From: Altererythrobacter ishigakiensis
GTDB lineage: Bacteria > Pseudomonadota > Alphaproteobacteria > Sphingomonadales > Sphingomonadaceae
NCBI RefSeq assembly: GCF_001663155.1
Contig: NZ_CP015963.1
Location: 62,001-126,000, forward strand
Reading direction: 5' to 3'
DNA: 64,000 nucleotides
This document shows positions 1-49,312 of the stretch, one piece after another. Position 1 is the stretch's first letter. Every line of letters begins with the position of its first letter. A model generated the notes under the pieces. It did not search any database. It had not been told where the DNA came from and saw only the letters and a list, made by a program, of their open reading frames with translations. Both the position numbers and the translations under genes were made by a program.

Positions 1-462
1 ACCCGGCGGCGAGAATGCTTCAAAGTTCTCCTGACCCTGGCTCGCTTGCTGCACAGCTTCGAATACCACGTCCAGCTTTTGCCCGAATACCAGAGTAGCC
101 GGGCCATCGCTGCCAGTGAGTACTCTGCCTAGCCATTCCGGCCCCCATACAATGATGTTCCAGACGACACCTTGGTAAGCGACCCAGCTTGTCGCAAAGG
201 TAAGAACAAGGCCCAAGGTCATCATGCGCGGAACAAGCGCCCGAACACTCAAGCTTGAGCGGCCAAGCATCAAGCTGATCCCGAAGAAGGCCACGTAGAA
301 CGTCAGCAGAATGATAAGGGTTGTTTGCAAAGCGCCACCGGGCGCGAACAAACTGCTGAACATGCCGGCTGCGCCTTGCTGAGCCATGCACTCAACGGCT
401 TGCAAGGCCGCGGCAATGCCGCCACCCATGCCTTCAAGTGCAGTGTCGCAAACACCCGCCAT
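1..462 (-). CDS. virB6: VirB6/TrbL-like T4SS inner-membrane protein (partial, C-terminus beyond window)
   Basis: The frame opens at ATG 462-460 and stays open to base 1, so 154 codons are visible and the C-terminus lies outside. The start begins MAGVCDTALEGMGGG and is followed by a hydrophobic segment (TLIILLTFYVAFFGISLML) and a second one (RMMTLGLVLTFATSWVAYQG), as in VirB6/TrbL polytopic channel proteins. The ATG shares one base with the virB4 stop (TAATG), so the two are translationally coupled. VirB6 forms part of the inner-membrane translocation channel. Family assignment rests on topology, the early Cys residues and position after virB4. Confidence 0.75.
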   Translation of the reverse strand, partial: MAGVCDTALEGMGGGIAAALQAVECMAQQGAAGMFSSLFAPGGALQTTLIILLTFYVAFFGISLMLGRSSLSVRALVPRMMTLGLVLTFATSWVAYQGVVWNIIVWGPEWLGRVLTGSDGPATLVFGQKLDVVFEAVQQASQGQENFEAFSPPG

Positions 463-19900: not shown

Positions 19901-20704
19901 TTAACCAGCGGGATCGTTGAAATAGGAAGGCAGCCAAGCGTTCACTACGCCGCCGTCCACAATCACGGTTTCGCCTACAACATAGTCGCCCGCGCGGCTG
20001 CATAGGTAAATCGCCGCAGCAGCCATGTCCTCTGCCGTGCCGATCCGCTTGGCCGGAATGCCTGCAGCCGATGCATCGGGCGCGTTCTTCGCAGCCTTGT
20101 TCATCTCGCTTGGGAAAGCGCCCGGTGCGATTGAGCTGACCACGATGTTGTCCTTGATCAGGCGCGCTGCAACACGGCGAGTCAGCTGAACCACGCCAGC
20201 CTTTGAAGCCTGATAGGCATAGGTCTCCCATGGATTGATGCGGAAACCGTCAATCGATGAGACATTGATCACCTTGGCAGGGCGGCCTTCACTCGCCGCA
20301 GTAACCAGCAAATTGTGCAGTTTCTGTGTCAGGAAGAACGGCGTCTTCACGTTCAGATCCATCGTCCGATGCCAGCCCGCCTCGCTGAATTCGAGATAGT
20401 CCTGACCCCATGCCGCACCGGCGTTATTGATCAGAATATCAAGCTTGTCTTCCTTTGCCGAAATCGCATCGGCAAGCTGCTGCATGCCGTCCATTTGGGA
20501 CAGGTCAGCTGGAATGCCGATGACCTTGTCAGCACCGAACTCGTCGATCGTTTCCTGCATCTGCTCGACCTTGCGGGCGGAGATGTAGACACGCGAGCAG
20601 CCCGCAGCGAGCAAGCCTTCGACGAACATTTTGCCGATCCCGCGCGAGCCGCCTGTGACCAGAGCAATCCGCCCATCAAGGCCAAAAAGTGATTGAATAT
20701 CCAT
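19901..20704 (-). CDS. SDR family oxidoreductase
   Basis: A 267-residue classical SDR. It has TGGSRGIGK (cofactor), INNAGAAWGQDY, VINVSSIDGF (Ser), YQASKAGV (Tyr/Lys) and AIYLCSRAGDYVVGETVIVDGG. The ARK following the second strand suggests NADP preference. It lies 13 bases after an acyl-CoA dehydrogenase stop, as the third gene of an operon with two acyl-CoA dehydrogenases. It could act as a hydroxyacyl-CoA or steroid/alcohol dehydrogenase. Confidence 0.9.
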   Translation of the reverse strand: MDIQSLFGLDGRIALVTGGSRGIGKMFVEGLLAAGCSRVYISARKVEQMQETIDEFGADKVIGIPADLSQMDGMQQLADAISAKEDKLDILINNAGAAWGQDYLEFSEAGWHRTMDLNVKTPFFLTQKLHNLLVTAASEGRPAKVINVSSIDGFRINPWETYAYQASKAGVVQLTRRVAARLIKDNIVVSSIAPGAFPSEMNKAAKNAPDASAAGIPAKRIGTAEDMAAAAIYLCSRAGDYVVGETVIVDGGVVNAWLPSYFNDPAG

Positions 20705-20717
20705 TGTTTAGCCCTTC

Positions 20718-21857
20718 CTAGTAACCGCTTAGCTCAGCCACACGATTGGTGTGGTAGTACGCATCGCCCAGGAATTCCTGCAGCGCGCGATCACGCTTCA
20801 TGTAAAGCCCGATATCATACTCGTCGGTCATCCCGATCCCGCCATGCATCTGCACGCCTTCGCGCACGGCAAGGCCGGCAGTCTTTGCGACCTTAGCCTT
20901 TGCGACAGATACCATCAGGTCCGCCTTTTCACTGCCGCCGTCGAGCAGTTGCTGGGCCTTGATCACTGCCGCACGTGCAATCTCGACTTCTGAGTACAGA
21001 TGCGCCGCGCGGTGCTGCAGTGCCTGGAATTCACCGATCAGCTTGCCGAACTGCTTGCGTTGCTTGAGGTAATCGACAGTCATGTCCATCGCCCCGCGTG
21101 CAACACCAACTCCTTCGGCTGCTGAGCCAACGCGGCCCGCATTCAGGATCTTGTTCAACACCTCACGCCCGCCGTCGACTTCGCCAATCACGGCATCGCC
21201 GTCCAGCTCGACATTGTCGAACGTGGTGTGCGTTGCCATCGAGCTGTCGACCAGCCGGACCGCGTCATGGCTCATGCCTGCCGCATCCTTAGGCACGGCA
21301 AACAGCGTTATGCCGTCATCATCGGCATCGCTGCCTGACGTGCGCGCCGCGACAATGATCATGTCAGAGCTGGCGCCCTGAACAACAAAGTCCTTTTTAC
21401 CCGACAGCTTGAAGCCATTGCCTGACTTTTCCGCCTTGCACGCAATCCGCTCTGGCCGGTGCTTGGCGCCTTCATCGATCGCAACCGCGAAAACGCTGTC
21501 ACCTGCGACCAGACCCGGCAGATAGCGTCCGCGCAGATCGTCACTGGCTTCGCCAAGCGCGGTTGCCGCCAGTACAGAGCTGGTCAGGAAAGGGGACGGT
21601 GTGAGATTGCGGCCAATTTCCTCGAGCACAATGCCCGCCTCGACATGGCCCATGCCAAGCCCGCCGTCCTCCTCGGAAACGAGGATACCGGTAAAGCCCA
21701 GCTCTGCCATTTCCTTCCACAAAGCGTGGCCAAAACCGTCCTTGCAATCGCGGTCACGCCAATGGCGCAGCTGTTTCGTGATTGAGCCTTCTTCAGCCAT
21801 AAACTGGCTCGCGGTTTCCGCGAGCATGGCCTGATCTTCATTATGATACAGTGGCAT
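20718..21857 (-). CDS. Acyl-CoA dehydrogenase (small-subunit-like partner)
   Basis: A 379-residue ACAD-fold protein with a diverged active site. The flavin/substrate loop reads VAIDEGAKHR in place of the usual MTEPGAGSD. The C-terminus reads QMHGGIGMTDEYDIGLYMKR with no GGTNE motif. Such degenerate ACADs usually pair with a full-length neighbour as an alpha2beta2 heterotetramer, as in FadE28/FadE29-type enzymes for sterol side chains. The neighbour 21861-23039 lies only three bases upstream. Pairing is an inference. Confidence 0.88.
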   Translation of the reverse strand: MPLYHNEDQAMLAETASQFMAEEGSITKQLRHWRDRDCKDGFGHALWKEMAELGFTGILVSEEDGGLGMGHVEAGIVLEEIGRNLTPSPFLTSSVLAATALGEASDDLRGRYLPGLVAGDSVFAVAIDEGAKHRPERIACKAEKSGNGFKLSGKKDFVVQGASSDMIIVAARTSGSDADDDGITLFAVPKDAAGMSHDAVRLVDSSMATHTTFDNVELDGDAVIGEVDGGREVLNKILNAGRVGSAAEGVGVARGAMDMTVDYLKQRKQFGKLIGEFQALQHRAAHLYSEVEIARAAVIKAQQLLDGGSEKADLMVSVAKAKVAKTAGLAVREGVQMHGGIGMTDEYDIGLYMKRDRALQEFLGDAYYHTNRVAELSGY

Positions 21858-21860
21858 CGA

Positions 21861-23039
21861 TCAAGCTCCCGGCAGATCAAGAATACGTTTGGAAATGACG
21901 TTCAGCATCACTTCGGATGTGCCGCCTTCGATCGAGTTCGCCTTGGTGCGAAGCCAGTTGCGCGCAGGCTTCCCGCCGCGCGTCTCGTCGCTTTCCCATT
22001 CAAGGCTGCGCGAGCCGCCAGCGCTCATCATCAATTCGTGGCGACGCTTGTTCAGCTCGGTCCCGGCGTATTTCATCATGTTGGGCTGCGCCGGATGCGC
22101 CTTGCCCACCTTGATTTCGTCCAGGAACTTCTCACCCATGCAGCCATAGGCAAGCGCATCGACGTCAAAGTCTGCAAGGTCGGCACGCAGGATCGGATCA
22201 AGTTCGCCCGCATGGCGTGACATCGCAACACCAAGAGTGCCCGTGTTGCCGCCGTCTGCGCCAGAAATCATCTCGCGCTCATGGCCCAGCAGATACTTCG
22301 CCACATCCCAGCCGCGATTGATTTCACCCACATAGCCGGGGCAATCTTCGCCATAGCTCTTAGGCACTTTGACGTCGTCGAAGAAGGTTTCGCAGAACGG
22401 GCTGCTGCCGCTGATCAGCTTGATCGGCTTGGTCGAAACGCCTTCGCCCGCCATGTCGAACAGCATGAAGGTGATACCTTGGTATTTATTCTCCTTGTCC
22501 GTGCGGACGAGGCAGAAAATCCAATCCGCGTGATCGGCATAGGATGTCCAGATTTTCTGGCCATTGACGACCCAGTGATCGCCCTTGTCTTCTCCGAAAG
22601 TCTGCATCGAAACGAGGTCGGAGCCGCTGCCCGGCTCTGAATAACCCTGACACCAGCGGATCTCGCCGCGCGCTATTTCATTCAAGAACCGCTGCTTCTG
22701 GCCTTCGGTGCCAAAGTGCAGCAATGCCGGGCCAAGCATCCAGATGCCGAACGAGCTCAAAGGCGGACGTGCGCCGATAGCCGCCATCTCCTGACGCAGC
22801 ACCTTTGCTTGTGCAGGGCTTAGGCCGGCACCGCCATACTCCTTGGGCCACGCGGGCACGGTATATCCCTTCGCCACACAAGCCTCGAACCAGGCTTTCT
22901 GTGCGTCATTCTTGAAGGTGGCATTGCGGCCACCCCAATAGACATCGTCTTCATCGCGCACAGGCTGGCGCATTTCAGGGGGGCAGTTTGCTTCAAGCCA
23001 AGCGCGGGTTTCTTCGCGGAAGGTCTCCAGATCGGACAT
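21861..23039 (-). CDS. Acyl-CoA dehydrogenase
   Basis: A 392-residue ACAD with GYSEPGSGSDLVSMQTF (FAD loop), WVVNGQKIWTSYADHADWIFCLVRT, and EGGTSEVMLNVISKRIL at the C-terminus. It opens with a signature common in ACADs for long or branched substrates (WLEANCPPEMRQP). It is first in an operon with a partner ACAD and an SDR. The ATG follows AGAGGAGAG. A copy of the TTRRCGTAAGCG element sits 30-45 bases upstream of the start, which suggests direct control. Confidence 0.91.
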   Translation of the reverse strand: MSDLETFREETRAWLEANCPPEMRQPVRDEDDVYWGGRNATFKNDAQKAWFEACVAKGYTVPAWPKEYGGAGLSPAQAKVLRQEMAAIGARPPLSSFGIWMLGPALLHFGTEGQKQRFLNEIARGEIRWCQGYSEPGSGSDLVSMQTFGEDKGDHWVVNGQKIWTSYADHADWIFCLVRTDKENKYQGITFMLFDMAGEGVSTKPIKLISGSSPFCETFFDDVKVPKSYGEDCPGYVGEINRGWDVAKYLLGHEREMISGADGGNTGTLGVAMSRHAGELDPILRADLADFDVDALAYGCMGEKFLDEIKVGKAHPAQPNMMKYAGTELNKRRHELMMSAGGSRSLEWESDETRGGKPARNWLRTKANSIEGGTSEVMLNVISKRILDLPGA

Positions 23040-23184: not shown

Positions 23185-23251
23185 CGGCAATGCATGGGGA
23201 GAGCTGCATGTCCGGATTCGCGCTGATTCGCTGCACCATGAGGGCGTGCGC

Positions 23252-24676
23252 GTGACGACCGTTGCAAGCACATTGCCGCTGCGCACCAAGCTTACCTACG
23301 GCTTCGGATCGGTCGCCTACGGCATCAAGGACAATGGCTTCGCGACCTTCCTGCTGTTCTATTACAATCAGGTCGTCGGCATGCGCGCAGACCTGGTCAG
23401 CCTTGCCATCGCACTTGCGCTGATAGCAGACGCTTTCATCGATCCGCTTGTGGGCCATATGAGCGACCGCACCCGCACCAAGATCGGGCGCCGACACCCC
23501 TGGCTTTATGCGGCAGTAATCCCGATTGCCGTTGCATGGATCGCGCTGTGGCACCCGCCCGGCATGAGCGAGATGCAGATGTTCGTGTATCTATTCGTCG
23601 TCGCGATGCTCGTGCGAATGACCTTCTCTGCCTATGAAGTCCCATCATTGGCGCTGCTCCCGGAGCTTAGCCGCGATTATCATGACCGCACCGCTATCAT
23701 GCGTTTCCGCTTCCTTTTCGGATGGGGAGGCGGCCTTGCGATCATGTTCCTCGCCTATGCGATCTTCCTCGTCCCGACACCGGAATATCCGAATGGTCAA
23801 TTGAACCCCGCCGGCTATTCGCAATATGCCATTCTGGGCGCTGGAGTGATGGTGATTGCGGCGCTGACGGCAGCAATCGCGACGCAAAGGCGTATTGTAG
23901 AGCGGTACAACAGTAGCTCGTCGCTTCACGAGACGGCACACGGCTTGTCCGAGTTTGTCGGCGCCTTCCGATATCGTCCGTTCCTTTTGCTGATGTTTGC
24001 CGGGGTCTTTGCGTTCACCAACCAGTGGCTGATCTTCGCGCTGGTCCTCTATCTGTTCACCCATGTGTGGGAGTTCACGCAGGGCCAGTTCACGATTTAC
24101 TCGGCAACGCTGTTCATCGCTGCGTTCGTGGCGTTTCTGGCGGTGACGCCGGTTTCCATAAAGCTTGGCAAGGCGAAGGCCGCGGCGCTGCTAACAATAA
24201 TATCGCTCGCGCTTGGCACACTGCCCTATTGGTTGCGCTTTGCTGGGGTCTTCCCCGAACCGGGCACTGCTTTGATGTTCCCTCTGCTGCTCGCGTTTCT
24301 TGTAACATCAACGGCGGCCGGCATTTCCGCGATGATCCTGACGCTATCGATGATTGCCGACGTATCCGACCACTATGAATTTGAGACGGGCCGAAAGACA
24401 GAGGGCCTTTTCTCAGCTGGCATGTTCTTCATGCAGAAAATCGTGAATGGCATCGGCATTTTATTGTCGGGCCTGATCATCGCAGCGGTCGGCCTGCCAG
24501 CTGGTGCAGCGGCCGGGACAGTGGATGTGGGCATCGTGGATAACCTCGCGCTGTCCTATCTCGTCATAGCAACCATTATCAGTCTGATCGGCGCATGGGC
24601 TTACACCTTGTTCCCATTGGGCGAAGAAGAGCATGCGATGCGGGAAGCGCAAGCGGGCAGCGAAGCTGTGAAGTAA
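23252..24676 (+). CDS. MFS transporter, GPH (glycoside-pentoside-hexuronide:cation) type
   Basis: About 474 residues with twelve hydrophobic segments. The N-terminus [28 protein letters not shown], read in two parts, and [25 protein letters not shown] are hallmarks of the GPH/melibiose-permease family. The GTG at 23252 is chosen because GAGGG ends seven bases earlier; GTG 23246 is also possible. Sphingomonad relatives often sit beside acyl-CoA or steroid catabolism genes, so the cargo may be a hydrophobic acid or a sugar. It is divergent from the acyl-CoA dehydrogenase operon across a shared control region. Confidence 0.86.
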
Positions 24677-24761
24677 AAACTATGCAAATGAACGCTTGGC
24701 GCGCGCCACTGGCTCTGCCACGGTCGCGTCAAATTTGAGACAAGAGGACAGGAGAACCCCC

Positions 24762-26096
24762 ATGGATTTTGAACCAACAGAACGCCAACAATATTGGGCT
24801 GGCCGCGTTAAGGACTTCATCGAAGCGCACGTTCGCCCGGCTGTTGCGACTTATAAAGCGCAGGACGAAGAAGGTCAGCGCTGGAAAGTGATCCAGGTGG
24901 TCGAGGACCTGAAGGCCAAAGCCAAAGCTGAAGGCATCTGGAACCTGTTCATGCCGCCGCGCAATGACAGCCATCATCATGTTGATGAGACCTTCGAATT
25001 CGAAGGCCCGGGCCTCACGAACCTGGAATACGCTCTCTGTGCAGAGGAAATGGGCCGCATCGGCTTTGCCTCTGAAGTGTTCAACTGCTCCGCGCCTGAC
25101 ACCGGCAATATGGAAGTGTTCCACCGTTACGGGACCGCTGAGCAGAAAGAACAGTGGCTGAAGCCACTGATGAACGGCGAGATCCGCTCTGCCTTCCTTA
25201 TGACGGAGCCTTTCACCGCATCGTCGGACGCGACCAATATCGAAACCCGCATCGAACGCGATGGCGACGAATATGTCATCAATGGCCGCAAGTGGTGGTC
25301 ATCGGGCGTTGGCGACCCGCGCTGCAAAGTCGCGATTGTCATGGGCAAGACCGATTTCGAAGCAAAGCGCCACGCGCAACAATCAATGGTACTGATGCCG
25401 ATGGATGCGCCCGGCGTAAAGGTGCTGCGCCACTTGCCCGTGTTCGGTTATGACGATGCGCCGCACGGTCATATGGAAGTCGAACTGAAGGACGTGCGCG
25501 TTCCTGTAACTAACATGCTGCTAGGCGAAGGACGCGGTTTCGAGATCGCTCAAGGGCGCTTGGGCCCGGGCCGTATTCACCACTGCATGCGCACCATCGG
25601 AGTCGCGGAAGAAGCGCTGCACAAGATGTGCAAGCGTCTGCAAGAGCGTGAGGCATTCGGCAAGCCGATCTACAAGCATTCGGTCTGGGAAGAGCGCGTC
25701 GCGCGTGCCCGTATCGATATCGACATGACCCGCCTGCTCTGCCTGAAGGCGGCAGATATGATGGACAAGGTCGGGAACAAGGCCGCCAAGCAGGAAATCG
25801 CCATGATCAAGGTTCAGGCGCCGAACATGGCACTGAAGATCATCGACGATGCAATCCAGGCGCATGGCGGCGGCGGCGTATCGAACGACTATGGCCTCGC
25901 CAATGCCTATGCGCATCAGCGCACTCTGCGACTGGCTGACGGTCCGGATGAAGTCCACGCGCGCTCTATCGCACGCATGGAATTCGCCAAGCATATGCCG
26001 GAGGCTGGCCCCACCGCTAACGCGCTGCGCGAAGGCAATGCGCCGACGATGGGCGATGACAGCTTCAGCTCAGGCGACATGGGCGTCGCACGCTAA
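24762..26096 (+). CDS. ACAD10/ACAD11-like acyl-CoA dehydrogenase
   Basis: The start at ATG 24762 ([12 protein letters not shown]) follows ACAGGAG; 444 residues. The sequence closely recalls the ACAD domain of animal ACAD10/11: [72 protein letters not shown], and [11 protein letters not shown] replacing the usual GGTNEI. In the animal enzymes this domain acts on a phosphorylated 4-hydroxyacyl-CoA. A kinase of the matching type lies two genes downstream. It is the first gene of a three-gene operon. Confidence 0.92.
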
Positions 26097-26118
26097 GCGA
26101 GGGGCATAGGAGAGAGAC

Positions 26119-27207
26119 ATGGCGAAAGCTGCAATCCTGGAAACACCGGGTGAAGGACTGGTGATCGGCGACGTTGAACTCGCCGATCCGGCGCCGCACG
26201 AAGTGCTGATCGACACCAAGGCCTGCGGGCTTTGCCACTCGGACTTGCACTTCATCGACGGAGCTTACCCGCACCCGCTTCCGGCCATTCCGGGCCACGA
26301 GGCTGCTGGCGTCGTCCGCGCTGTGGGCAGTGAAGTGCGCAGTGTGAAGCCGGGAGACCACGTCGTCTCCTGCCTCAGTGCATTCTGCGGTCAGTGCGAA
26401 TTCTGCGTGACGGGACGGATGGCGCTATGCCTTGGTGCCAACACTCGGCGTGGGCCCGATGGCGCTCCGCGTATCAGCCGCGCAGACGGTTCGCCGGTGA
26501 ACCAGATGCTCAATCTCTCAGCCTTCAGCGAACAAATGCTGATCCACGAGAACGCCTGCGTGTCCATCGACAAGGATATGCCATTGGACCGGGCCGCTGT
26601 GATCGGCTGCGCTGTCACAACCGGCGCGGGCACAATCTTCAACGCGGCCAATGTCACCCCGGGTGAGACTGTGCTGGTGGTTGGTTGCGGCGGGGTTGGT
26701 CTTGCCGCCATCAACGCTGCCAAGATTGCTGGCGCAGGCAAAGTGATCGCAGCTGATCCGTTGCCTGAAAAGCGCGAGCTGGCGAAAGTCCTGGGCGCGA
26801 CGCACACGGTCGATGCATTGGCTGACGATGTCGTGAAGCAGATCATGGATATCTCTGGCGGCGGCGTGCACTACGGCATCGAAGCGGTTGGCCGTCAGGC
26901 TTCAGCTGACTTGGCGGTCGCTTCGCTGCGGCGCGGCGGCACGGCGATCATACTCGGCATGATGCCGTTGGATTGCAAAGTGGGCCTGGGCGCAATGGAT
27001 TTGCTCAGCGGCAAGAAGCTGCAAGGCGCGATCATGGGCGAGAACCACTTCCCCGTGGACCTGCCCCGTCTGGTGGATTTCTACATGCGCGGGCTGCTCG
27101 ATCTCGACACAATCATTGCCGAACGCATTCCGCTTGAAGACATCAACAAGGGCTTCGACAAGATGCGCGAGGGGCATTCGGCACGCAGCGTGGTGGTGTT
27201 TGACTGA
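26119..27207 (+). CDS. Zinc-dependent alcohol dehydrogenase (MDR family)
   Basis: A 362-residue medium-chain dehydrogenase. The catalytic zinc site is CGLCHSDLHF with GHEAAGVV. The structural zinc site is CGQCEFCVTGRMALC, and the Rossmann loop is VVGCGGVGLAAINAA. The class resembles class III/FrmA-like and aryl/acyl alcohol dehydrogenases acting with NAD. The ATG follows GGAGAGAG. It sits between the ACAD11-like gene and the kinase gene and shares one base with the latter (TGATG). It may oxidise a hydroxy group of the shared substrate or product. Confidence 0.9.
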   Translation: MAKAAILETPGEGLVIGDVELADPAPHEVLIDTKACGLCHSDLHFIDGAYPHPLPAIPGHEAAGVVRAVGSEVRSVKPGDHVVSCLSAFCGQCEFCVTGRMALCLGANTRRGPDGAPRISRADGSPVNQMLNLSAFSEQMLIHENACVSIDKDMPLDRAAVIGCAVTTGAGTIFNAANVTPGETVLVVGCGGVGLAAINAAKIAGAGKVIAADPLPEKRELAKVLGATHTVDALADDVVKQIMDISGGGVHYGIEAVGRQASADLAVASLRRGGTAIILGMMPLDCKVGLGAMDLLSGKKLQGAIMGENHFPVDLPRLVDFYMRGLLDLDTIIAERIPLEDINKGFDKMREGHSARSVVVFD

Positions 27208-28301
27208 TGGCTGACAACAAGGGCGGTATGCCGGATATCGATTTCGACAAGGAAATGGTCGGCACGATTGAAGTGCCTGAAGCTGATCAGCTCGATCTTG
27301 AGAAGCTGTCTCAATGGTTCGAAGCCAATGTGGAAGGCTATGCCGGCCCGATCAGCTATACCAAGTTCAAAGGCGGGCAATCCAATCCGACTTACCGGAT
27401 CGATACGCCGGGTGCGTCCTATGTGCTGCGCAGGCAACCTTTCGGCAAGCTACTTCCCAGTGCGCATGCGGTAGATCGCGAGTACAAGGCGATGACGGGG
27501 CTTTATCCCACTGGATTCCCTGTGCCGCGTACCTTTGGTTTGTGCGAAGACACAGATGTAATCGGCTCAAAATTCTTCGTCATGAGCATGGCGGATGGGC
27601 GCAGCCTATGGAACGGAGCGTTGCCGAACTGCTCAAAAGAAGAACGGCGCGAGATTTATCATTCGCTGATCGACACCATGGCGGATCTGCACACCAAGGT
27701 GCCGGACGAAATCGGCTTGGGTGACTACGGCAAGCCGACCGATTATTGCGCGCGCCAGATCAGCCGCTGGACCAAGCAATACAAGCTGTCCGAAACCGAA
27801 CATCAGCCGAAAATGGAGCGGCTGATCGCATGGCTGCCAGAGACCATCCCACCGCAGCATAACTCCAGCGTGGTCCACGGCGATTACCGATTGGACAATG
27901 TGATATTTCACAAGACAGAAAACCGCGTGATCGCAGTTCTGGATTGGGAGCTGTCGACGCTGGGCGATCCGATCGCAGATTTCAGCTATCTGATGCTCAA
28001 CTGGTATAATCCCGCCGATGGACGCGCAGGATTGGAAGGGCTTGATCTGGAAGAGCTTGGCATACCTTCGGTGCAGGAAGCGGTTGATCGCTATGTCGCG
28101 CGCACCGGCTATCCGGTTCCGCCGATGGACTGGTATTTCGGATACAACCTGTTCCGGCTGGCCGGCATTATGCAAGGCATCAAGAAGCGCGTGATCGATG
28201 GAACGGCTTCGTCAGCGCATGCCAAGTCCATGAGCGAACGGGTTACTCCGCTGATTGAACGCGCATATGACTTTGCGCGCGCCGCCGGAATGCCTGAATA
28301 G
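27207..28301 (+). CDS. ACAD10/11-type APH-fold kinase (phosphotransferase)
   Basis: A 364-residue protein-kinase-like (APH) fold. The N-lobe has FKGGQSNPTYRID and YVLRRQPFGKLLPSAHAVDR (ATP-binding). The catalytic loop is VVHGDYRLDNVIF, and the metal-binding loop is VIAVLDWELSTLGDP. These match the N-terminal kinase domain of ACAD10/11, which phosphorylates the 4-hydroxyl of 4-hydroxyacyl-CoA. The stop is seven bases from the end of a convergent protease gene. The start overlaps the dehydrogenase stop by one base. Confidence 0.9.
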   Translation: MADNKGGMPDIDFDKEMVGTIEVPEADQLDLEKLSQWFEANVEGYAGPISYTKFKGGQSNPTYRIDTPGASYVLRRQPFGKLLPSAHAVDREYKAMTGLYPTGFPVPRTFGLCEDTDVIGSKFFVMSMADGRSLWNGALPNCSKEERREIYHSLIDTMADLHTKVPDEIGLGDYGKPTDYCARQISRWTKQYKLSETEHQPKMERLIAWLPETIPPQHNSSVVHGDYRLDNVIFHKTENRVIAVLDWELSTLGDPIADFSYLMLNWYNPADGRAGLEGLDLEELGIPSVQEAVDRYVARTGYPVPPMDWYFGYNLFRLAGIMQGIKKRVIDGTASSAHAKSMSERVTPLIERAYDFARAAGMPE

Positions 28302-28307
28302 CGCGGC

Positions 28308-30671
28308 TTAGAAGTCGGCAGAGAAGCTGATCATCGCGCCGATATCGCTTTGGCTGTTGGCGTAGTGACCCGGCTCGTGGCGATAGAACACGCTGGCTCC
28401 GCCCACGCCCAACAGCAGAGGTAATTGCCAGGACATCTCGCCAACCAGTTCGCGCCCATCGGGAGCCAGCGATAAAGGCTGAATCGAATATCCTGCCGTC
28501 TCAGTCGTATAGTCGAAACTCGACGGCAGATTGAGCCGCAATCCGCCAACTTCCACACGCAATGGCTGGCTGATACGCAGCCCCAAAGTATCGCCATGCA
28601 TCAGCGCCGACGCACGCGACACATCCAGGGCCCAGGCATTGCTGATAAACTGTGATCCACCCGCAATCACATCACCGCGTGCAGCACGAGTCAAACCGAC
28701 GCGGGCTTCACCACCAAATTCCCAACCGCTACCAGGGTGCCACCGCAAACTGCCATCAGTAAACAACGTATCCGCACCATTGCGGCCAATCGCAGGGTGA
28801 AGCTGCGCGCCCAGAATACTGCGCTCCTCATGCATCCAGCGCATTCCGAGTGTGCCGACAAGAGCGCCGAAGCGGCGATCTGCAGAGATGCCAATCGTCC
28901 GCACCCGAAAACGATTCTTTTCGCCATAGAAAAGCTCATCGAAGCGTTGTGTATAGCTAAGCCGTGCATCGCTCTCTTCGGCATGGAATGTCAGGCCCCA
29001 GCTGCCCAGATCCTGGCGCAATGCAAGCGAGCTACCGACAACGGCAAAAAATCCGGAGTCACCGCTCGTGCCCGGCGCAATCCGAAACGCTGGCTTCGAA
29101 TGCCCCTGCAGTTGTGCAACCAAACCCTCAGCGCTCTGCGCAAACGCGAGGCCCAGTTGCAGGTCAGGCGAAATCCTTGTCGCGACGCGCGCAGCCAGAA
29201 CGCGCGCGCGTTCGGCATCATCCGAGCTCAATCGCAGCGAGCCGCTCCAACCAAGAGTTCCTGCACGCGCACCGTCGCCGACATGGAATGCCAGACTTGT
29301 GTCGGTCAGGCTGAGGGAGAGTCGCCGCCCGTTCTGCTCAACCGCACCGCGCAAACGCGGCATCACACTTGACCCGTCAAAGCCAGAGCTGAGCTCATAT
29401 CCATAAGCTCTGTTGTATTTGTCCGTGACAATTGTTTGCAGACCTTGCGAGCCCAAGGCGTCACCCATCGCAGGCGACGCCACTGCGATCCGGTCCGACA
29501 GCGGCAATCGCGTTGTGCCGCCCGCCAGAGTCGTCGTGCCCGCCGGCTGAAATGCGGCTGCAATATCAAGGATGCCGCGTCCAAAGATTGCGTCAGTCCC
29601 GCTGGCGCCTGCATCTGCGGCGCTCTCGAGCAAGATTTCGACAATCTCCTGCCCGGTCAGATTGGGAAAAGCTTGAGCGAGCAGCGCGGCAGCGCCGGCC
29701 ACTTGAGGGGCTGAGAAGCTGGTGCCGGAAAAGACCGTGACGAATTCCTGCCCGTTGATTGTCTCGACGAACAGTTCACCCTGATCATAGACACAGCAGA
29801 CCTGCTCTCCCCGTGCGGTCAGGTAGAACTGGCTTTCATTGCCTGCCTGATTGCTGAACCCAGAGAAATTGCCATCTGCATCGACAGATCCGACAATGAT
29901 GACATTGTCTCCGCCTGCCTGCCTGATGCTGCTGGCGAACGGATCAGGCTGTTCAGCCGGGATGTTCGGATCGCTGCCATCGCCGGAATTGCCGGCCGCC
30001 ACTACCACGACCACACCAGCTGCGGACGCACGGGCCACGGCATCCAGAAGTACCTGAGATGCGCCACCGCCTCCCAAACTCAGGTTTACTACCTTCGCGC
30101 CAGAGCTGACCGCGAGATCAACGCCCGCCGCGATATCGGTATCTGCAAAGAGACAGCTAAGCGAAGCGTCCTGAGGTGTATCATTACCGCACGAGCCAGG
30201 CTGATCGGCACGTATGGCCAACACTTGCGCATCAAACGCAATGCCCAGCACACCGGTATCGTTGCGCGCAGCCGCCGCAACCAAGGCGACATTCGTGCCG
30301 TGATCATCTTCGCCGTCGATCCCGCGATTCCCGACGACATCGGCTGAATCGGGATGAATCCGTCCGGCAAATTCGGGACTGTCGCTATCGATACCGGTGT
30401 CGACAATCGCGATGATCGAACCATCGCCTGTGAAACCGTCCTCCCATGCGGCAATCGCGCCGTGTTGTTCCGGCCCGTCCGAAAAACGGAACTCTTCAGT
30501 ATCGAAATTGGTTGGTGGCGGGGTGGGCGTGGGTGTTAGAGTGGGTGTCGGGCGCGGTGTGCTAACCGGGGCCGCACCACTGCCCCCACCGCACCCCGCA
30601 AGCAAAGTCAGCGCTGATGCCGCGCCAAGCAAGCGGGCGGTGAATCGGGGAAGCGGGGGTAGTCTTTCCAT
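28308..30671 (-). CDS. Subtilisin-like (S8) autotransporter lipoprotein
   Basis: A 787-residue protein. A lipobox LLAGC puts Cys at residue 27, followed by a proline/threonine linker (about 37-53). The S8 protease domain carries catalytic Asp91 (IVDTGID), His124 (DDHGTN) and Ser near 318 (SGTSFSAPQVAGAAA). A passenger extension leads into a C-terminal beta-barrel-like region (about 500-787) ending in Phe (SFSADF), as in AspA-type autotransporters. A lipidated N-terminus on an autotransporter passenger is unusual but known in SphB1/NalP. It stands alone, convergent with the kinase gene. Confidence 0.88.
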   Translation of the reverse strand: MERLPPLPRFTARLLGAASALTLLAGCGGGSGAAPVSTPRPTPTLTPTPTPPPTNFDTEEFRFSDGPEQHGAIAAWEDGFTGDGSIIAIVDTGIDSDSPEFAGRIHPDSADVVGNRGIDGEDDHGTNVALVAAAARNDTGVLGIAFDAQVLAIRADQPGSCGNDTPQDASLSCLFADTDIAAGVDLAVSSGAKVVNLSLGGGGASQVLLDAVARASAAGVVVVVAAGNSGDGSDPNIPAEQPDPFASSIRQAGGDNVIIVGSVDADGNFSGFSNQAGNESQFYLTARGEQVCCVYDQGELFVETINGQEFVTVFSGTSFSAPQVAGAAALLAQAFPNLTGQEIVEILLESAADAGASGTDAIFGRGILDIAAAFQPAGTTTLAGGTTRLPLSDRIAVASPAMGDALGSQGLQTIVTDKYNRAYGYELSSGFDGSSVMPRLRGAVEQNGRRLSLSLTDTSLAFHVGDGARAGTLGWSGSLRLSSDDAERARVLAARVATRISPDLQLGLAFAQSAEGLVAQLQGHSKPAFRIAPGTSGDSGFFAVVGSSLALRQDLGSWGLTFHAEESDARLSYTQRFDELFYGEKNRFRVRTIGISADRRFGALVGTLGMRWMHEERSILGAQLHPAIGRNGADTLFTDGSLRWHPGSGWEFGGEARVGLTRAARGDVIAGGSQFISNAWALDVSRASALMHGDTLGLRISQPLRVEVGGLRLNLPSSFDYTTETAGYSIQPLSLAPDGRELVGEMSWQLPLLLGVGGASVFYRHEPGHYANSQSDIGAMISFSADF

Positions 30672-30819: not shown

Positions 30820-31659
30820 ATGAGTAATGATCTCGTCACAGCAATCGAAGCAGCTTGGGAACGCCGCGCGGACATCACCCCCGCCGATCAGGACGTTCGC
30901 GGTGTAGTAGATGAAGCAATTGCCTTGCTTGATAGCGGTGAAGCACGTGTTGCGGAGCCCGACGAAAATGGCGGCTGGAAGGTCAATCAATGGCTAAAGA
31001 AGGCGGTTCTGCTGTCTTTTCGCGTCCACAACAACCGCATCATCGAACACGGTTCGGCTGGCGCGGCAGCTTATGACAAGGTTCCCAGCAAGTTCTCCGG
31101 ATGGGGCGACAATCGCTTCAGCGAAGCCGGGTTCCGTGTTGTTCCGGGCGCGATTGTCCGCCGCGGCAGCCATATTGGCAAAGGCGTGGTGCTGATGCCC
31201 AGTTTCGTGAATATCGGTGCCTTCGTCGATGAAGGTGCCATGATCGACACATGGGCAACTGTCGGCTCTTGCGCACAGATCGGCAAGAATGTGCACATCT
31301 CGGGCGGCGCGGGAATTGGCGGCGTGCTGGAGCCGCTTCAGGCTGAACCCGTCATTATCGGCGATGGCGCCTTCATTGGCGCGCGGGCCGAAGTGGCCGA
31401 GGGGGTTCGTGTAGGCGAAGGCGCGGTGCTGTCGATGGGGGTCTATCTTGGCGCCTCGACCAAAATTGTCGACCGAGCCACAGGCGAGATCCATATGGGC
31501 GAAGTGCCGCCCTATGCCGTGGTGGTTCCAGGCTCGCTACCTGGCAAACCGCTACCAGACGGCACTCCTGGCCCATCGCTGTATTGCGCAGTCATTGTGA
31601 AGACCGTTGATGCAAAGACCCGCGCAAAGACCGGGATCAACGATCTGTTGCGCGATTGA
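30820..31659 (+). CDS. dapD: 2,3,4,5-tetrahydropyridine-2,6-dicarboxylate N-succinyltransferase
   Basis: A 279-residue cytosolic enzyme of the succinylase branch of lysine/diaminopimelate synthesis. It transfers succinyl from succinyl-CoA to tetrahydrodipicolinate. After an N-terminal helical domain it has a left-handed beta-helix of hexapeptide repeats: [37 protein letters not shown], and [20 protein letters not shown]. The ending is [14 protein letters not shown]. Length is normal for DapD. The 148 bases upstream hold no gene. It has no dap neighbours here. Confidence 0.95.

Positions 31660-42650: not shown

Positions 42651-42651
<1 letters not shown>
42181..42651 (-). CDS. RidA-family lipoprotein
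   Basis: A 156-residue RidA/YjgF-like protein with a lipoprotein signal (lipobox AVSGC, Cys about residue 18). The RidA core is visible: VYHASELPYPFSDAVEVDG, SSDIGANDAGTG, FKCTVMLEDMSEWPAFNAIY and PARSAFGTNGLALGAKVELE, with the catalytic Arg in PARSAF. RidA hydrolyses enamine/imine intermediates. A lipidated, exported version is uncommon. Its ATG overlaps the thiC stop by one base (TGATG), so it falls under the TPP riboswitch. Confidence 0.9.
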
Positions 42652-44570
<1,919 letters not shown>

Positions 44571-44605
44571 CTAACAGCGGGAGAGCGGATTTCTGGCAAG
44601 CACCG

Positions 44606-44713
44606 CTCCACTCCCTCCGCTGATGTTAATCAGTTCAGGTTCAACGGGTCGGGCGCTGCGACACGCCCCTCTCAGCCATTGTCCGAATGCAGACTCGCTG
44701 GCTCCCCGGGGAT
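44606..44713 (-). ncRNA. TPP (thiamine pyrophosphate) riboswitch
   Basis: On the minus strand the leader of thiC carries the THI-box core: CCCCGGGGAGCC at the 5' end, GGCTGAGAGGGGCG in the middle and GAACCTGAACTGATTAACAT before GGAGGGA at the 3' end. The CUGAGA and the ACCUGAUC-like elements bind TPP. It ends about 45 bases before the thiC ATG, which fits control of translation initiation or premature termination. Confidence 0.93.
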
Positions 44714-44751
44714 GGATTTCGTTCTAGTCTGATTTCCCTGGCAGGTCTAGC

Positions 44752-45181: not shown

Positions 45182-46738
45182 TCATTCGGCTAGTTCCAGG
45201 TCCGCATCCTGCGCCGTTTCCTTGTGCAGGCCGGTGTAAACAAACTCCGTACTGTCGAGATCGATATTGGGTATCTCGTCTTTCTCGCGCCAGTAATCCT
45301 GATTGTGCCTCCACTCGGGTTTGTCGCCACGCTTGGGGAGTTTATCGAGCCCGCGCATAAGGTAACCGGGATTGAAATTATCAGACTCGATCCACGGATG
45401 GAGCTCCATCCCTTCATCCTCCGGCCGCAAAGCAACTTCCACCCGTGCAGCATGTTTCTCATCCATGTGATTGAGCAGGCCGCACACGAAATCGCCCAGC
45501 ATGTCGACCCGCAAGGTCCAGCTGGCCCGGAAATAGCCGAATACCCACGCCATATTGGGTACGCCGGTGAACATCATCCCGCGATAGGTCACAGTGTCGT
45601 TCCAGTTCACTTGCTCACCGTCGATGAAGAAGGGAATGTTGCCCATGACGGAGAGATGGAATCCCGTGGCCGCGACGATCAAATCGGCTTCAATCTCTTC
45701 GCCTGAGGCAGTTCGCACGCCGTTGTGTGTGAAGCAGTCGATCGTATCGGTCACGACGGTGAGCTTGCCGTCTACAGAAGCGCGGAACACATCGCCGTCA
45801 GGGCAGAACGCCAAGCGTTGCTGCCAGGGGCGGTACTTCGGCGTGAAATGCGGTTCGAATTCGAAATCGGGCTTGCCAGTAAAGGCGCGGATCAACTCGC
45901 GCAATTCTTCCACCACGACGTCCGGCTCTTCGATACAGCGCTTTGTCAGTACATCCTGATCATGCATGATCTGCGCACGAACCACGCGGTGAATGGTTGG
46001 CTCGTCAATCCCCACTTCGCGCAGCCGGTCCGCCAGCTCGTTCTTGTTCTCACTACAAAAGAAGTAAGTGGGAGAGCGCTGTAACATTGTGACATGCGCC
46101 GCCTTCTCAGCAAATTCTGGCACCACTGTCGCAGCCGTTGCGCCAGAACCGATCACCATTACCCGTTTGCCCGTATAATCATAATCCGGGTTCCACAGCT
46201 GGGCATGAACGAAATCGCCCTTGAAATCTGACAGGCCTCTCTCGTTCCATTCAGCCGGGATGTAAGGCGTTTCGTGATCGTAATAGCCCTGACACATCCA
46301 GAGGAAATGGCAGGTGAATGCGCGTGAAGCGCCGTCGGCCAAACGCTCAGCTTCGACGGTCCACAAGTTGTTCTCACGCGAAAACGAACAGCGAGTGATC
46401 CGGTGGCCATAGAGGATGTGATCGCCGATCCCGTGCTCCTCGATCACTTCGCCCATGTATTTCAGAATCTCGTCCGCGCTGGCGATAGGCGGGCCGATCC
46501 ACGGCTTGAAGCGATAACCGAATGTGTAAAGGTCGCTGTCAGAGCGAACGCCGGGATATTTGTGCGTTTCCCACGTGCCGCCAAACGTGTCCTTCATCTC
46601 AAGGATCGCATAGGTCTTCCCCGGACATTGCTCTTGCAGATGATAGGCAGAACCTATGCCTGAAATCCCCGCCCCCGCAATCAGCACATCCACATGCTGC
46701 GGGATGGCATCCGGCCCGATACGTTCCATCGCATTCAT
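45182..46738 (-). CDS. Baeyer-Villiger-type flavin monooxygenase
   Basis: The start at 46738 (MNAMERIGPDAIPQHVDV) follows GAGGAG; 518 residues. The FAD Rossmann motif is VLIAGAGISGIGSAY. The NADPH motif is VIGSGATAATVVPE. The BVMO fingerprint FxGxxxHxxxW appears as FKGDFVHAQLWN, with Asn in place of the usual Pro/Asp. The C-terminal third includes a PGYLMRG-type loop. It would insert oxygen into ketones or oxidise other nucleophiles using NADPH and O2. It is divergent from the nitronate monooxygenase across an FNR-type box. Confidence 0.9.
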   Translation of the reverse strand: MNAMERIGPDAIPQHVDVLIAGAGISGIGSAYHLQEQCPGKTYAILEMKDTFGGTWETHKYPGVRSDSDLYTFGYRFKPWIGPPIASADEILKYMGEVIEEHGIGDHILYGHRITRCSFSRENNLWTVEAERLADGASRAFTCHFLWMCQGYYDHETPYIPAEWNERGLSDFKGDFVHAQLWNPDYDYTGKRVMVIGSGATAATVVPEFAEKAAHVTMLQRSPTYFFCSENKNELADRLREVGIDEPTIHRVVRAQIMHDQDVLTKRCIEEPDVVVEELRELIRAFTGKPDFEFEPHFTPKYRPWQQRLAFCPDGDVFRASVDGKLTVVTDTIDCFTHNGVRTASGEEIEADLIVAATGFHLSVMGNIPFFIDGEQVNWNDTVTYRGMMFTGVPNMAWVFGYFRASWTLRVDMLGDFVCGLLNHMDEKHAARVEVALRPEDEGMELHPWIESDNFNPGYLMRGLDKLPKRGDKPEWRHNQDYWREKDEIPNIDLDSTEFVYTGLHKETAQDADLELAE

Positions 46739-46789
46739 CGCATACACTCCTCTCATGCTGCAATCTGGTGCCAATGCAGCAATCCTTCA

Positions 46790-46803
46790 TTGATCGAGAT
46801 CAA
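46790..46803. promoter_or_regulatory. FNR/FixK-type operator
   Basis: TTGATCGAGATCAA is a perfect match to TTGAT-N4-ATCAA; the palindrome extends one base each side. It is in the 133-base divergent gap: 52 bases from the BVMO ATG (46738) and 69 bases from the nitronate monooxygenase ATG (46872). Confidence 0.7.
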
Positions 46804-46871
46804 TTCTATCAGGTCACGCTTGCGACACGTGGCGCTAGAGCTAAAAATGATCGCAAAGGGGAGAGATACGA

Positions 46872-47990
46872 ATGCCGTTCCGGATGACAGATATGGTGGG
46901 ATGCGAATTCCCGCTGTTTGCCTTTTCGCATTGCCGTGATGTGGTTGCCGCCGTCAGCCGCGCAGGTGGCTTTGGCGTGCTTGGTGCGGTCAGCTTTACC
47001 CCTGAACAGCTGGAAACCGAACTCAAGTGGATCGACGACAATATCGACGGCAAGCCGTATGGCGTAGATGTCCTGATCCCTGAAGTGCAGGCCGTCGATC
47101 ACTCGGTCACAGCTGACGAGGTGGTCGCAGCAATCCCACAGCAGTATCGCGACTTCACGCGCCAGATCCTGCGTGAGGCCGGGCTGGATGAAAGCGGAGC
47201 AAACCCGCTTGGCGGTTCGCAACAGCCCAATACCTCGCTTGGGCAGGAATTGCTTGAAGTCAGCTTCAACCACCCCGTGCGGCTTATCGCCAATGCGTTG
47301 GGAACGGCGCCGCCGCAAATGATCGAGGCAGGCAAGAGGCACGGCATTCCTGTCGCGGCATTGGTCGGCGCAAAGGAACACGCAATGAAGCAGATTGAGG
47401 CAGGCGTTGACATTATCGTCGCTCAAGGAGGCGAAGGCGGCGGGCATTGCGGCGAAGTCAGCACGATCGTGCTGATCCCAGAAGTGTTGCAAGCGATCGA
47501 AGAGGCGGGCGCAGATATCCCCGTGCTCGCCGCTGGCGGCATCATGAACGGCAAACAGATGGCGGGCATGATGGCGATGGGCGCAGCGGGTGCATGGTGC
47601 GGCAGTGTTTGGCTGGCGACGTCAGAAGCAGAAACGCACGAAGTGTTCCGCGAGAAGATGGTTCAGGCGACCAGCCGCGACACGATCCGTTCAAAGCATC
47701 GCACCGGCAAATACTCGCGGCAATTGCGCAGCGGTTGGCACGCCATGTGGGAAGAGGCCGGCCTGCCCGCACTGCCGATGCCGCTGATGATGCTGCTATC
47801 GGAGCCTGCGCTCCGCACCATCGACAAGGCAGCCGTGAGCGGCAATACCAAGGCGCAAGAGCTGTGTTCCTACTTTGTCGGGCAAGGCGTGGGGTTGGTT
47901 CGCGAAGTCACCTCCGCTGGCCAAGTGGTGCAGGACTTCAAACAGGATTTCGCCGCTGGGTATGAGACCTTGGCCGGAGCGCTCGAATGA
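46872..47990 (+). CDS. Nitronate monooxygenase / 2-nitropropane dioxygenase family
   Basis: A 372-residue FMN-dependent TIM-barrel enzyme. It begins with PFRMTDMVGCEFPLFAF and has SRAGGFGVLGAVSFTPEQL. Also present are VAALVGAKEHAMKQIEAGVD and VAQGGEGGGHCGEVST, and the FMN-binding VPVLAAGGI-like segment (IPVLAAGGIMNGKQMAGMM). The ATG follows GGGGAGAG. It oxidises alkyl nitronates or related compounds. Its stop overlaps the next FMO start by four bases (ATGA), indicating coupled translation. Confidence 0.88.
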   Translation: MPFRMTDMVGCEFPLFAFSHCRDVVAAVSRAGGFGVLGAVSFTPEQLETELKWIDDNIDGKPYGVDVLIPEVQAVDHSVTADEVVAAIPQQYRDFTRQILREAGLDESGANPLGGSQQPNTSLGQELLEVSFNHPVRLIANALGTAPPQMIEAGKRHGIPVAALVGAKEHAMKQIEAGVDIIVAQGGEGGGHCGEVSTIVLIPEVLQAIEEAGADIPVLAAGGIMNGKQMAGMMAMGAAGAWCGSVWLATSEAETHEVFREKMVQATSRDTIRSKHRTGKYSRQLRSGWHAMWEEAGLPALPMPLMMLLSEPALRTIDKAAVSGNTKAQELCSYFVGQGVGLVREVTSAGQVVQDFKQDFAAGYETLAGALE

Positions 47991-49312
47991 ACGGATTGCC
48001 CAAGGTTTGCATAATCGGCGCAGGCTGTAGCGGTTTCACCACTGCCAAGCGGCTCAAGGATTACGGCATACCCTTCGACGTGTTCGAGGCGTCCGACGAC
48101 ATCGGCGGCACCTGGTATTACGACAATCCCAACGGCATGTCGGCTTGCTACAAAAGCTTGCACATCGACACGTCGAAATGGCGGCTGGCCTTCGAAGATT
48201 TTCCGGTGCCCGATGACTGGCCGGACTATCCGCATCACGCGCAGCTGCTGAAGTACTTCCACGATTACGTCGATCATTTCGGCTTGCGCGATCACATTGC
48301 ATTCAACACGCGCTTAGAGAAGGCGCAGCGGCGCGAAGGTGGCGGCTGGGACGTTACTCTCTCAACCGGTGAAACACGGCAGTATGATGCCTTGGCGGTT
48401 GCAAACGGCCACCATTGGGCTGCACGAATTCCGGACTATCCAGGTGAATTTAACGGCGAGCAGTTTCATTCGCATAGCTATCGCAGCCCGTTCGAACCCG
48501 CTGATTGTGTTGGTAAGCGTGTGCTGGTGGTCGGCATGGGCAATTCCGCGATGGACATAGCCAGCGAGCTGTCGCAGCGCCCAATTTCCGAGCGGCTGTT
48601 TGTCTCGGCGCGGCGCGGTGTGTGGGTACTGCCCAAATATTACAACGGTCAGCCGCTCGACAAGAATCCGGCTCCTGCGTGGATGCCGAAGTCGGTGCGC
48701 CAATGGCTAGGCACACGGTTCATCAAGAAGCTGGTCGGCAAGATGAGCGACTACGGCTTGCCCGACCCCGAAATCGGTCCGTTTGAGAGCCACGCGACAG
48801 TTTCAGGAGAGTTCCTGCTGCGCGCGGGCTCTGGCGACATTGCGATGAAACCGGGGATCGAGCGGCTCGACGGCGATGGGGTAATCTTTACCGACGGCTC
48901 GCGCGAACAGGTGGATGTGATCATCTGGGCCACAGGCTATGACATCAAATTCCCGTTTTTTGACGATCCTCAGTTCACGGCTGACAGCGACAATCGTCCG
49001 CCTCCTCTGTTCAAGCGGATCATGAAGCCTGATGTGCCAGACCTGTTTTACATGGGGCTTGCTCAGCCGCTGCCAACGCTGGTCAACTTTGCCGAACAGC
49101 AGTCAAAGCTGGTCGCAGCCTATCTTGCCGGAGAATATGCCCCGCCTTCAGCAACTGATATGCAGGACATCATCAACGCTGATGAAGCCTATCACACCGG
49201 CCATTACTATGCGTCGCGCAGGCACACGATCCAGCTCGACTTTGATCATTACGTGCGCGACCTGCTCAAGGAAATCGAGCGCGGGAAGCGCAAGCGTCAA
49301 GCTGCGGCCTAG
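47987..49312 (+). CDS. Flavin-containing monooxygenase (FMO-like)
   Basis: A 441-residue FMO. FAD motif VCIIGAGCSGFTTAK and the NADPH motif VLVVGMGNSAMDIASEL are present. The FMO fingerprint FxGxxxHxxxY appears as FNGEQFHSHSY, which distinguishes it from the BVMO opposite. It oxygenates soft nucleophiles (N, S) with NADPH and O2. It is co-translated with the nitronate monooxygenase. Together with the BVMO it forms an oxygenase cluster under possible oxygen-responsive control. Confidence 0.9.
   Translation: MNGLPKVCIIGAGCSGFTTAKRLKDYGIPFDVFEASDDIGGTWYYDNPNGMSACYKSLHIDTSKWRLAFEDFPVPDDWPDYPHHAQLLKYFHDYVDHFGLRDHIAFNTRLEKAQRREGGGWDVTLSTGETRQYDALAVANGHHWAARIPDYPGEFNGEQFHSHSYRSPFEPADCVGKRVLVVGMGNSAMDIASELSQRPISERLFVSARRGVWVLPKYYNGQPLDKNPAPAWMPKSVRQWLGTRFIKKLVGKMSDYGLPDPEIGPFESHATVSGEFLLRAGSGDIAMKPGIERLDGDGVIFTDGSREQVDVIIWATGYDIKFPFFDDPQFTADSDNRPPPLFKRIMKPDVPDLFYMGLAQPLPTLVNFAEQQSKLVAAYLAGEYAPPSATDMQDIINADEAYHTGHYYASRRHTIQLDFDHYVRDLLKEIERGKRKRQAAA

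Follow-up and report, generated by a model that had tools for sequence, protein, structure and literature searches.

A cluster of three genes in the genome of Altererythrobacter ishigakiensis (G000, one contig of 2.67 Mb) very probably encodes the form that the LvaA/LvaC route, by which 4-hydroxy acids enter beta-oxidation, takes in Erythrobacteraceae. The cluster lies in a stretch of 64,000 nucleotides (C1:62001-126000, hereafter the window) and encodes an acyl-CoA dehydrogenase (ACAD) of the LvaC/ACAD11 type, a zinc-dependent alcohol dehydrogenase (ADH) and a kinase of the LvaA/ACAD11 type with the aminoglycoside phosphotransferase (APH) fold (Table 1). The three-gene observation is confirmed: the open reading frames (ORFs) lie where an earlier interpretation of the bare DNA (the sequence-only reading) had placed them, the dehydrogenase and kinase signature strings which that reading cited are present in the translations, and the one-base overlap it described at the kinase junction is found as TGATG, in which the ADH stop codon (TGA, 27205-27207) runs into the kinase ATG (27207-27209). 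A gap of 22 bases separates the dehydrogenase from the ADH. The likeness of the locus to its structural relatives is not a matter of chance, given PDB E-values of 1.7e-141 for the dehydrogenase with ACAD11 and, for the kinase, of 1.4e-109 with 3dxp and 1.8e-71 with ACAD11.

Kinase and dehydrogenase of the ACAD11 type

The best match of the dehydrogenase among solved structures is ACAD11 (8v3u), followed by 4hr3 (1.7e-131) and then by FadE3 (4e-41), and the protein is 56% identical to the 8v3u row, as against 23-35% in best local alignments with eight other ACADs, seven of them from its own genome. A TTG at 24696 offers an alternative start, but the alignment to chain 4hr3 begins at the first residue past the ATG at 24762. 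We take 8v3u and 8v3v to be mouse and 2wbi to be human on the basis of papers and numbering rather than the structure listing; the chain index equals the mouse number minus one throughout the ACAD11 alignments. By these chain alignments R266, R271, H274, R277 and D393 of the window dehydrogenase correspond to R626, R631, H634, R637 and D753 of mouse ACAD11, kinase D226 corresponds to D220, and the HCMR motif with its Arg-His-Arg phosphate pocket is present in the dehydrogenase as IHHCMRT. Chain 8v3v carries N in the D753 column and chain 8v3u carries A in the column of kinase D226. In mouse ACAD11, according to PMC12440821, a change of the kinase aspartate D220 abolishes kinase activity, the dehydrogenase step is lost when D753 is changed, and it is disrupted when R626, H634 or R637 is changed.

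All 113 LvaC-type matches in the loci fetched for comparison (at least 49% identity and more than 330 bits) keep the five ACAD11-type residues, the general R631 included, and D226 (HGD), N231 and D246 (DWE) are kept in 120 of 120 kinase matches, none left out. Twelve ACAD matches lie outside the filter, namely five contig-edge pieces of LvaC types, six conventional ACADs and one ACAD from genome G012. The last of these (L131:8085-9263) is a divergent protein, 35% identical, that adjoins an LvaA-type kinase and keeps all five ACAD11-type residues; it groups with the other ACADs in the tree despite keeping them, and is possibly a distant or independently derived LvaC.

Both proteins also fall into ACAD11 clades in trees whose rows come from the PDB, from the phylum-sample loci and from 6 of the 80 named loci, with ACAD10 and the Pseudomonas putida proteins not included. 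In the ACAD tree, made by a quick method without bootstrap and with a program warning of long branches in the outgroup, a 53-row LvaC-type group containing mouse and human ACAD11 stands apart from 12 other ACAD rows (SH-aLRT 99). Among solved structures the kinase matches 3dxp at 50% identity, the kinase domain of ACAD11 at 38% and 9o56 at 31%, and a rebuilt kinase tree unites the window protein with 3dxp and the ACAD11 kinase in a clade of 37 rows, with support of 100/100 against the 9o56 group; within that clade the sister of ACAD11 is poorly supported (89/47). These trees, the kept residues and the co-occurrence described below bear out the proposal of the sequence-only reading that the two genes are a split ACAD11 counterpart.

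The annotation names of the genes are generic (phosphotransferase, aminoglycoside phosphotransferase, acyl-CoA dehydrogenase), and taken at face value would make the pair an ordinary ACAD and an antibiotic-type APH that merely look the part. Such an explanation is highly improbable and is contradicted, because the residue and tree tests go against it: R626, H634 and R637 are all missing from the six conventional ACADs, and both window proteins group with ACAD11. The kinase moreover scores 34 bits with the APH(3') model against a cut-off of 205, and an antibiotic-type assignment was rejected. The kinase also has relatives, none reaching 60% identity, on 293 plasmid records, with Pseudosulfitobacter, Sulfitobacter, Rhodococcus and Sphingobium accounting for many of these.

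The two genes travel together across genomes. In a phylum sample of 150 genomes the kinase (E <= 1e-40) was found in 38 and the LvaC type (E <= 1e-80) in 37, with at most 11 candidates scored per genome, and all 37 were among the 38; the single kinase-only genome was G012, whose kinase adjoins the divergent ACAD described above. The genes lie within 5 kb of each other in 21 of the 37, and draft contigs may hide more. A family sample of 149 genomes gave the same picture under stricter thresholds (kinase E <= 1e-70, LvaC type E <= 1e-100), with the kinase in 118 genomes and the LvaC type in 111, every one of them among the 118. Such tight co-occurrence speaks for a common function of the two genes throughout the phylum sample. 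In genus g57, which includes G058, all 25 sampled genomes hold an LvaC-type gene, and no kinase was seen within about 6 kb of four LvaC loci of the g57 family (L168-L171), so that looking there for a P. putida-like lva operon yielded no LvaA for reference; in G058 and G062 an LvaA-type kinase lies far off on the same contig, and in G146 on another contig. A LysR-type regulator stands alongside the LvaC gene at L168:6025-7227, by a reading of the ORFs.

The source genome holds a second LvaC-type dehydrogenase (L126:9678-10940, equivalent to G000:C1:1105177-1106439 on the minus strand), 68-69% identical and with the HCMR motif; the single LvaA-type kinase of the genome lies elsewhere. Next to this dehydrogenase stand a pyridoxamine-phosphate-oxidase-like gene, with a four-base overlap, and a divergent cupin gene, and nitrate-reductase and molybdenum-cofactor genes were read among the neighbouring ORFs. 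Candidate bacterial fusions of kinase and dehydrogenase were rejected: at L103 and L104 the extra length was an upstream frame that, read by eye, is unlike an ACAD, and at L108 the frame came to 386 codons from stop to stop in one reading and to 818 in another listing.

According to PMC11342911, PMC12440821 and PMC6692424, the LvaA and ACAD10/11 kinases phosphorylate the 4-hydroxyl of 4-hydroxyacyl-CoA, the ACAD part eliminates the phosphate to yield 2-enoyl-CoA, and ACAD10 is described as needing no terminal electron acceptor. By analogy we infer the same pair of reactions at the window locus, where the kinase would phosphorylate the 4-hydroxyl of a 4-hydroxyacyl-CoA and the dehydrogenase would remove the phosphate by means of FAD and the Arg/His/Arg pocket, releasing 2-enoyl-CoA. 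The bacterial 4-hydroxy-acid pathway predicted by the sequence-only reading is not a new idea, the P. putida lva operon being a known example of such a route.

A zinc alcohol dehydrogenase as recurrent partner

The ADH between the two genes can be aligned over its full length with class I/III ADH. Residues C39, H60 and C164, which align with the catalytic zinc ligands of that class, C90, C93, C96 and C104, which align with its structural zinc ligands, and D213, which aligns with its NAD-type aspartate, are present in all 75 related rows wherever the position is covered. The closest NCBIfam model, for NDMA-dependent ADH, gives 326 bits against a cut-off of 440.

Related loci were fetched as the best 80 of 132 confirmed, from Erythrobacteraceae, other Sphingomonadales or Alphaproteobacteria. 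A separate search for homologous proteins gave at least 120 matches of 80-97% identity, none of which the analysis draws on. Dehydrogenase and kinase are both seen in 75 of these 80, and in 71 of the 75 the ADH lies between them on the same strand. The four genomes without it, two of them metagenome-assembled genomes (MAGs), hold no close copy elsewhere; a relative of 37-38% identity was the best in three and nothing above the limit was found in the fourth, in a search that returned a 94% match in a control genome. The ADH was found (E <= 1e-110) in 72 genomes of the family sample and stands beside LvaC, the kinase or both in 71 of them: 61 have the window order, 6 have it next to LvaC only, 4 next to the kinase only, and 1 (G286) next to neither. 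The kinase of the six LvaC-only genomes lies elsewhere or on another contig. In one genome of that set (G288) and in one of the kinase-only set (G193) the ADH is truncated, apparently where a contig ends. Given this linkage and the absence from four relatives, the ADH counts as a recurrent partner that the kinase-dehydrogenase pair can do without. The sequence-only reading had cast the ADH as an extra step of the pathway; what stands of that proposal is the recurrent partnership, although four relatives are without the gene.

It is possible, although fairly unlikely, that the ADH is unconnected with 4-hydroxy acids and is an alcohol or formaldehyde dehydrogenase hitch-hiking in a convenient operon. 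The gaps just described would fit this explanation, as would the breadth of the protein family, to which the sub-threshold NDMA-dependent score attests, and the thin distribution of the gene elsewhere: among 60 kinase/LvaC loci searched, two (L128, L129) come from the family and both have the ADH, and the other 58 show ADH relatives only in L141 (G075) and in L148, there 6.3 kb from the kinase. Hitch-hiking is harder to reconcile with a gene that adjoins LvaC, the kinase or both in nearly all of its family genomes, in six of them next to LvaC though the kinase is elsewhere, and with G075, in which a different MDR-type ADH directly follows the LvaA-LvaC pair.

In the pathway the ADH would most likely supply or rebalance the substrate, either by interconverting 4-oxo- and 4-hydroxyacyl-CoA, which in P. 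putida is done by the unrelated LvaD, or by oxidizing a hydroxy-alcohol precursor. The reaction of the ADH, the cargo of the transporter upstream and the natural substrate can be offered only as guesses. No mention of an ADH-containing cassette was found in the openly licensed literature searched, and the ADH as a third member beside the kinase-dehydrogenase pair may be undescribed.

A possible wider module and its neighbours

On the plus strand the order of genes is transporter, dehydrogenase, ADH and kinase, and a pair of ACADs followed by an SDR gene lies head to head with them on the minus strand (Table 1).

Table 1. Genes of the locus, with positions counted from the first letter of the window
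Gene	Position	Strand	Features
Acyl-CoA dehydrogenase, LvaC/ACAD11-type, predicted 4-phosphoacyl-CoA to 2-enoyl-CoA	24762..26096	+	444 aa; ATG start
Zinc-dependent MDR alcohol dehydrogenase (ADH)	26119..27207	+	362 aa; Pfam ADH_N and ADH_zinc_N
LvaA/ACAD11-type kinase, APH fold, predicted 4-hydroxyacyl-CoA kinase	27207..28301	+	364 aa; Pfam APH 1.8e-50
MFS_2/GPH-type transporter, possible operon head	23246..24676	+	directly upstream of the dehydrogenase; Pfam MFS_2 1.4e-96
ACADb, divergent acyl-CoA dehydrogenase	21861..23039	-	top PDB matches 4x28, 6wy9, 6wy8_B (Tcur3483)
ACADa, divergent acyl-CoA dehydrogenase	20718..21857	-	first PDB match 4kto (isovaleryl-CoA dehydrogenase), second 6wy8_A (Tcur3481)
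SDR family oxidoreductase, following ACADb and ACADa	19901..20704	-	domain scan

The transporter slot and the divergent ACAD pair recur with the cluster: every one of the 64 loci whose upstream sequence is long enough has an MFS_2 relative at the transporter position, and ACADa and ACADb lie upstream on the opposite strand in all 64 that are long enough to show them; in G024 (L129) the ACAD pair is on the other side of the kinase, about 3-6 kb away. This arrangement suggests that the transporter and the ACAD pair belong to a larger module. Of 40 kinase loci, 20 have an SDR no more than 2 kb from the kinase, a count that had no chance control and on which no weight is placed.

A module of this shape might serve a single bulky compound, such as a terpenoid-like or steroid-like acid, with the divergent ACADs forming a heteromeric alpha2beta2 enzyme, the MFS_2 protein acting as importer, and the kinase and LvaC handling one 4-hydroxyacyl-CoA intermediate. 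We presume that the matches of the 4x28/6wy8 type (Tcur3481/Tcur3483) are steroid alpha2beta2 enzymes, and in favor of such a specialization the three top matches of ACADb are 4x28 and two Tcur3483 chains, the second match of ACADa is Tcur3481, the other chain of 6wy8, and the constant position of the pair, divergent from the operon in 64 of 64 loci and beyond the kinase in G024, points the same way. A bulky substrate is only a possibility, because the first match of ACADa is isovaleryl-CoA dehydrogenase, and other observations also run counter to it: the pimC and pimD models score far below their cut-offs (254 of 624 and 235 of 653 bits), the transporters are much more divergent than the enzymes (37-46% identical in nearly all loci and 84% in L012, against about 80% or more), and a shared position is no proof of one pathway. 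On balance a module built around one bulky compound is unlikely. A related idea, in which the zinc ADH serves this family as a dedicated third enzyme that converts a 4-oxo or diol precursor to 4-hydroxyacyl-CoA, possibly together with a heteromeric ACAD, such that the natural substrate would be bulky and not levulinic acid, is rather doubtful.

Several points weigh against the assignment of the locus to the LvaA/LvaC route. No acyl-CoA ligase (AMP-binding) is present among the nine genes scanned around the locus, and a gene located elsewhere may provide CoA ligation; nor is there a small LvaB-like gene between kinase and dehydrogenase, where only the ADH is found, in a genome that was not searched for LvaB. 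The ADH is missing between the pair in 4 of 75 loci (L074, L079, L080, L089), and 7 of the 118 family-sample genomes with the kinase lack an LvaC type at the threshold used. The Fisher p-values for co-occurrence, 2e-34 in the phylum sample and 1e-25 in the family sample, ignore shared ancestry. In the first kinase tree, whose outgroup was not coherent, an APH from the same genome on a very long branch (L094) fell inside the group containing ACAD11, and the tree was rebuilt after removal of 9fsg, L141 and the APH rows of the source genome. The likeness to P. putida LvaA and LvaC is one of published description.

Directly after the kinase stands a large subtilase (Peptidase S8) ORF at 28308-30671 on the minus strand, with a C-terminal part that reads as autotransporter-like; it is absent from many relatives, where a putative dapD directly follows the kinase (in the window, the gene at 30820-31659 is the one we take to be dapD). 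Farther from the locus, a thiamine pyrophosphate (TPP) riboswitch (44594-44718, minus strand; Rfam RF00059, 59.7 bits) lies directly upstream of thiC (42651-44558), flavin monooxygenase-like genes adjoin a nitronate-monooxygenase-family gene at 45182-49312, and a VirB/TrbE-type conjugation ATPase occupies 462-2885 (minus strand) at the left end of the window.

Comparison with known systems

A split bacterial counterpart of ACAD10/11 is already in print, the published case, according to ACAD10/11 papers of 2024 and 2025, being LvaA and LvaC of the P. putida lva operon. The authors of PMC11342911 name LvaA and LvaC as separate bacterial counterparts of ACAD10/11 and report that the Burkholderia pseudomallei orthologues could replace each part of ACAD10; LvaA and LvaC were the starting point for finding ACAD10/11 (PMC12440821), and PMC6692424, with reference to Rand et al. 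2017, places homologues of lvaABCD in the Alpha-, Beta- and Gammaproteobacteria. The window locus is a compact case with cultured relatives. In the species collection it matches best an Altererythrobacter MAG, whose kinase is 98% identical, and its relatives by locus are Erythrobacteraceae, with Erythrobacter longus and Parerythrobacter lutipelagi as cultured examples. The ADH is one lineage-specific accessory gene beside the known LvaA/LvaC pair, and should it feed the pathway, knowledge of its substrate would reveal what these bacteria burn.

Compared by description, the P. putida operon and the window share separate kinase and ACAD-family genes in one operon and the same predicted phosphorylated intermediate. 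The P. putida operon alone has LvaB, the oxidoreductase LvaD, which reduces levulinyl-CoA, the CoA ligase LvaE and its transporter genes (PMC6692424), whereas the window module has the zinc ADH, the MFS_2 transporter and the divergent SDR-ACAD-ACAD arm, with no ligase or LvaB-like gene in the module; an SDR to set beside LvaD sits only in that divergent arm. The lva cluster of Pseudomonas citronellolis LA18T (PMC6692424) combines LvaA, LvaC and an oxidoreductase with no LvaB, but its oxidoreductase is an SDR and the cluster holds a histidine phosphatase gene. The B. pseudomallei LvaA and LvaC are, by description, likewise separate proteins of the same families (PMC11342911). Mammalian ACAD11 (8v3u, 8v3v, 2wbi) has both catalytic parts, with D220, R626, R631, H634, R637 and D753 kept, and differs in that kinase and dehydrogenase are fused into one polypeptide, with which animals burn 4-hydroxy fatty acids, whereas in the window they are two ORFs with the ADH between them. 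ACAD10 differs further in its HAD-like domain (PMC12440821), to which no gene corresponds among the module genes scanned.

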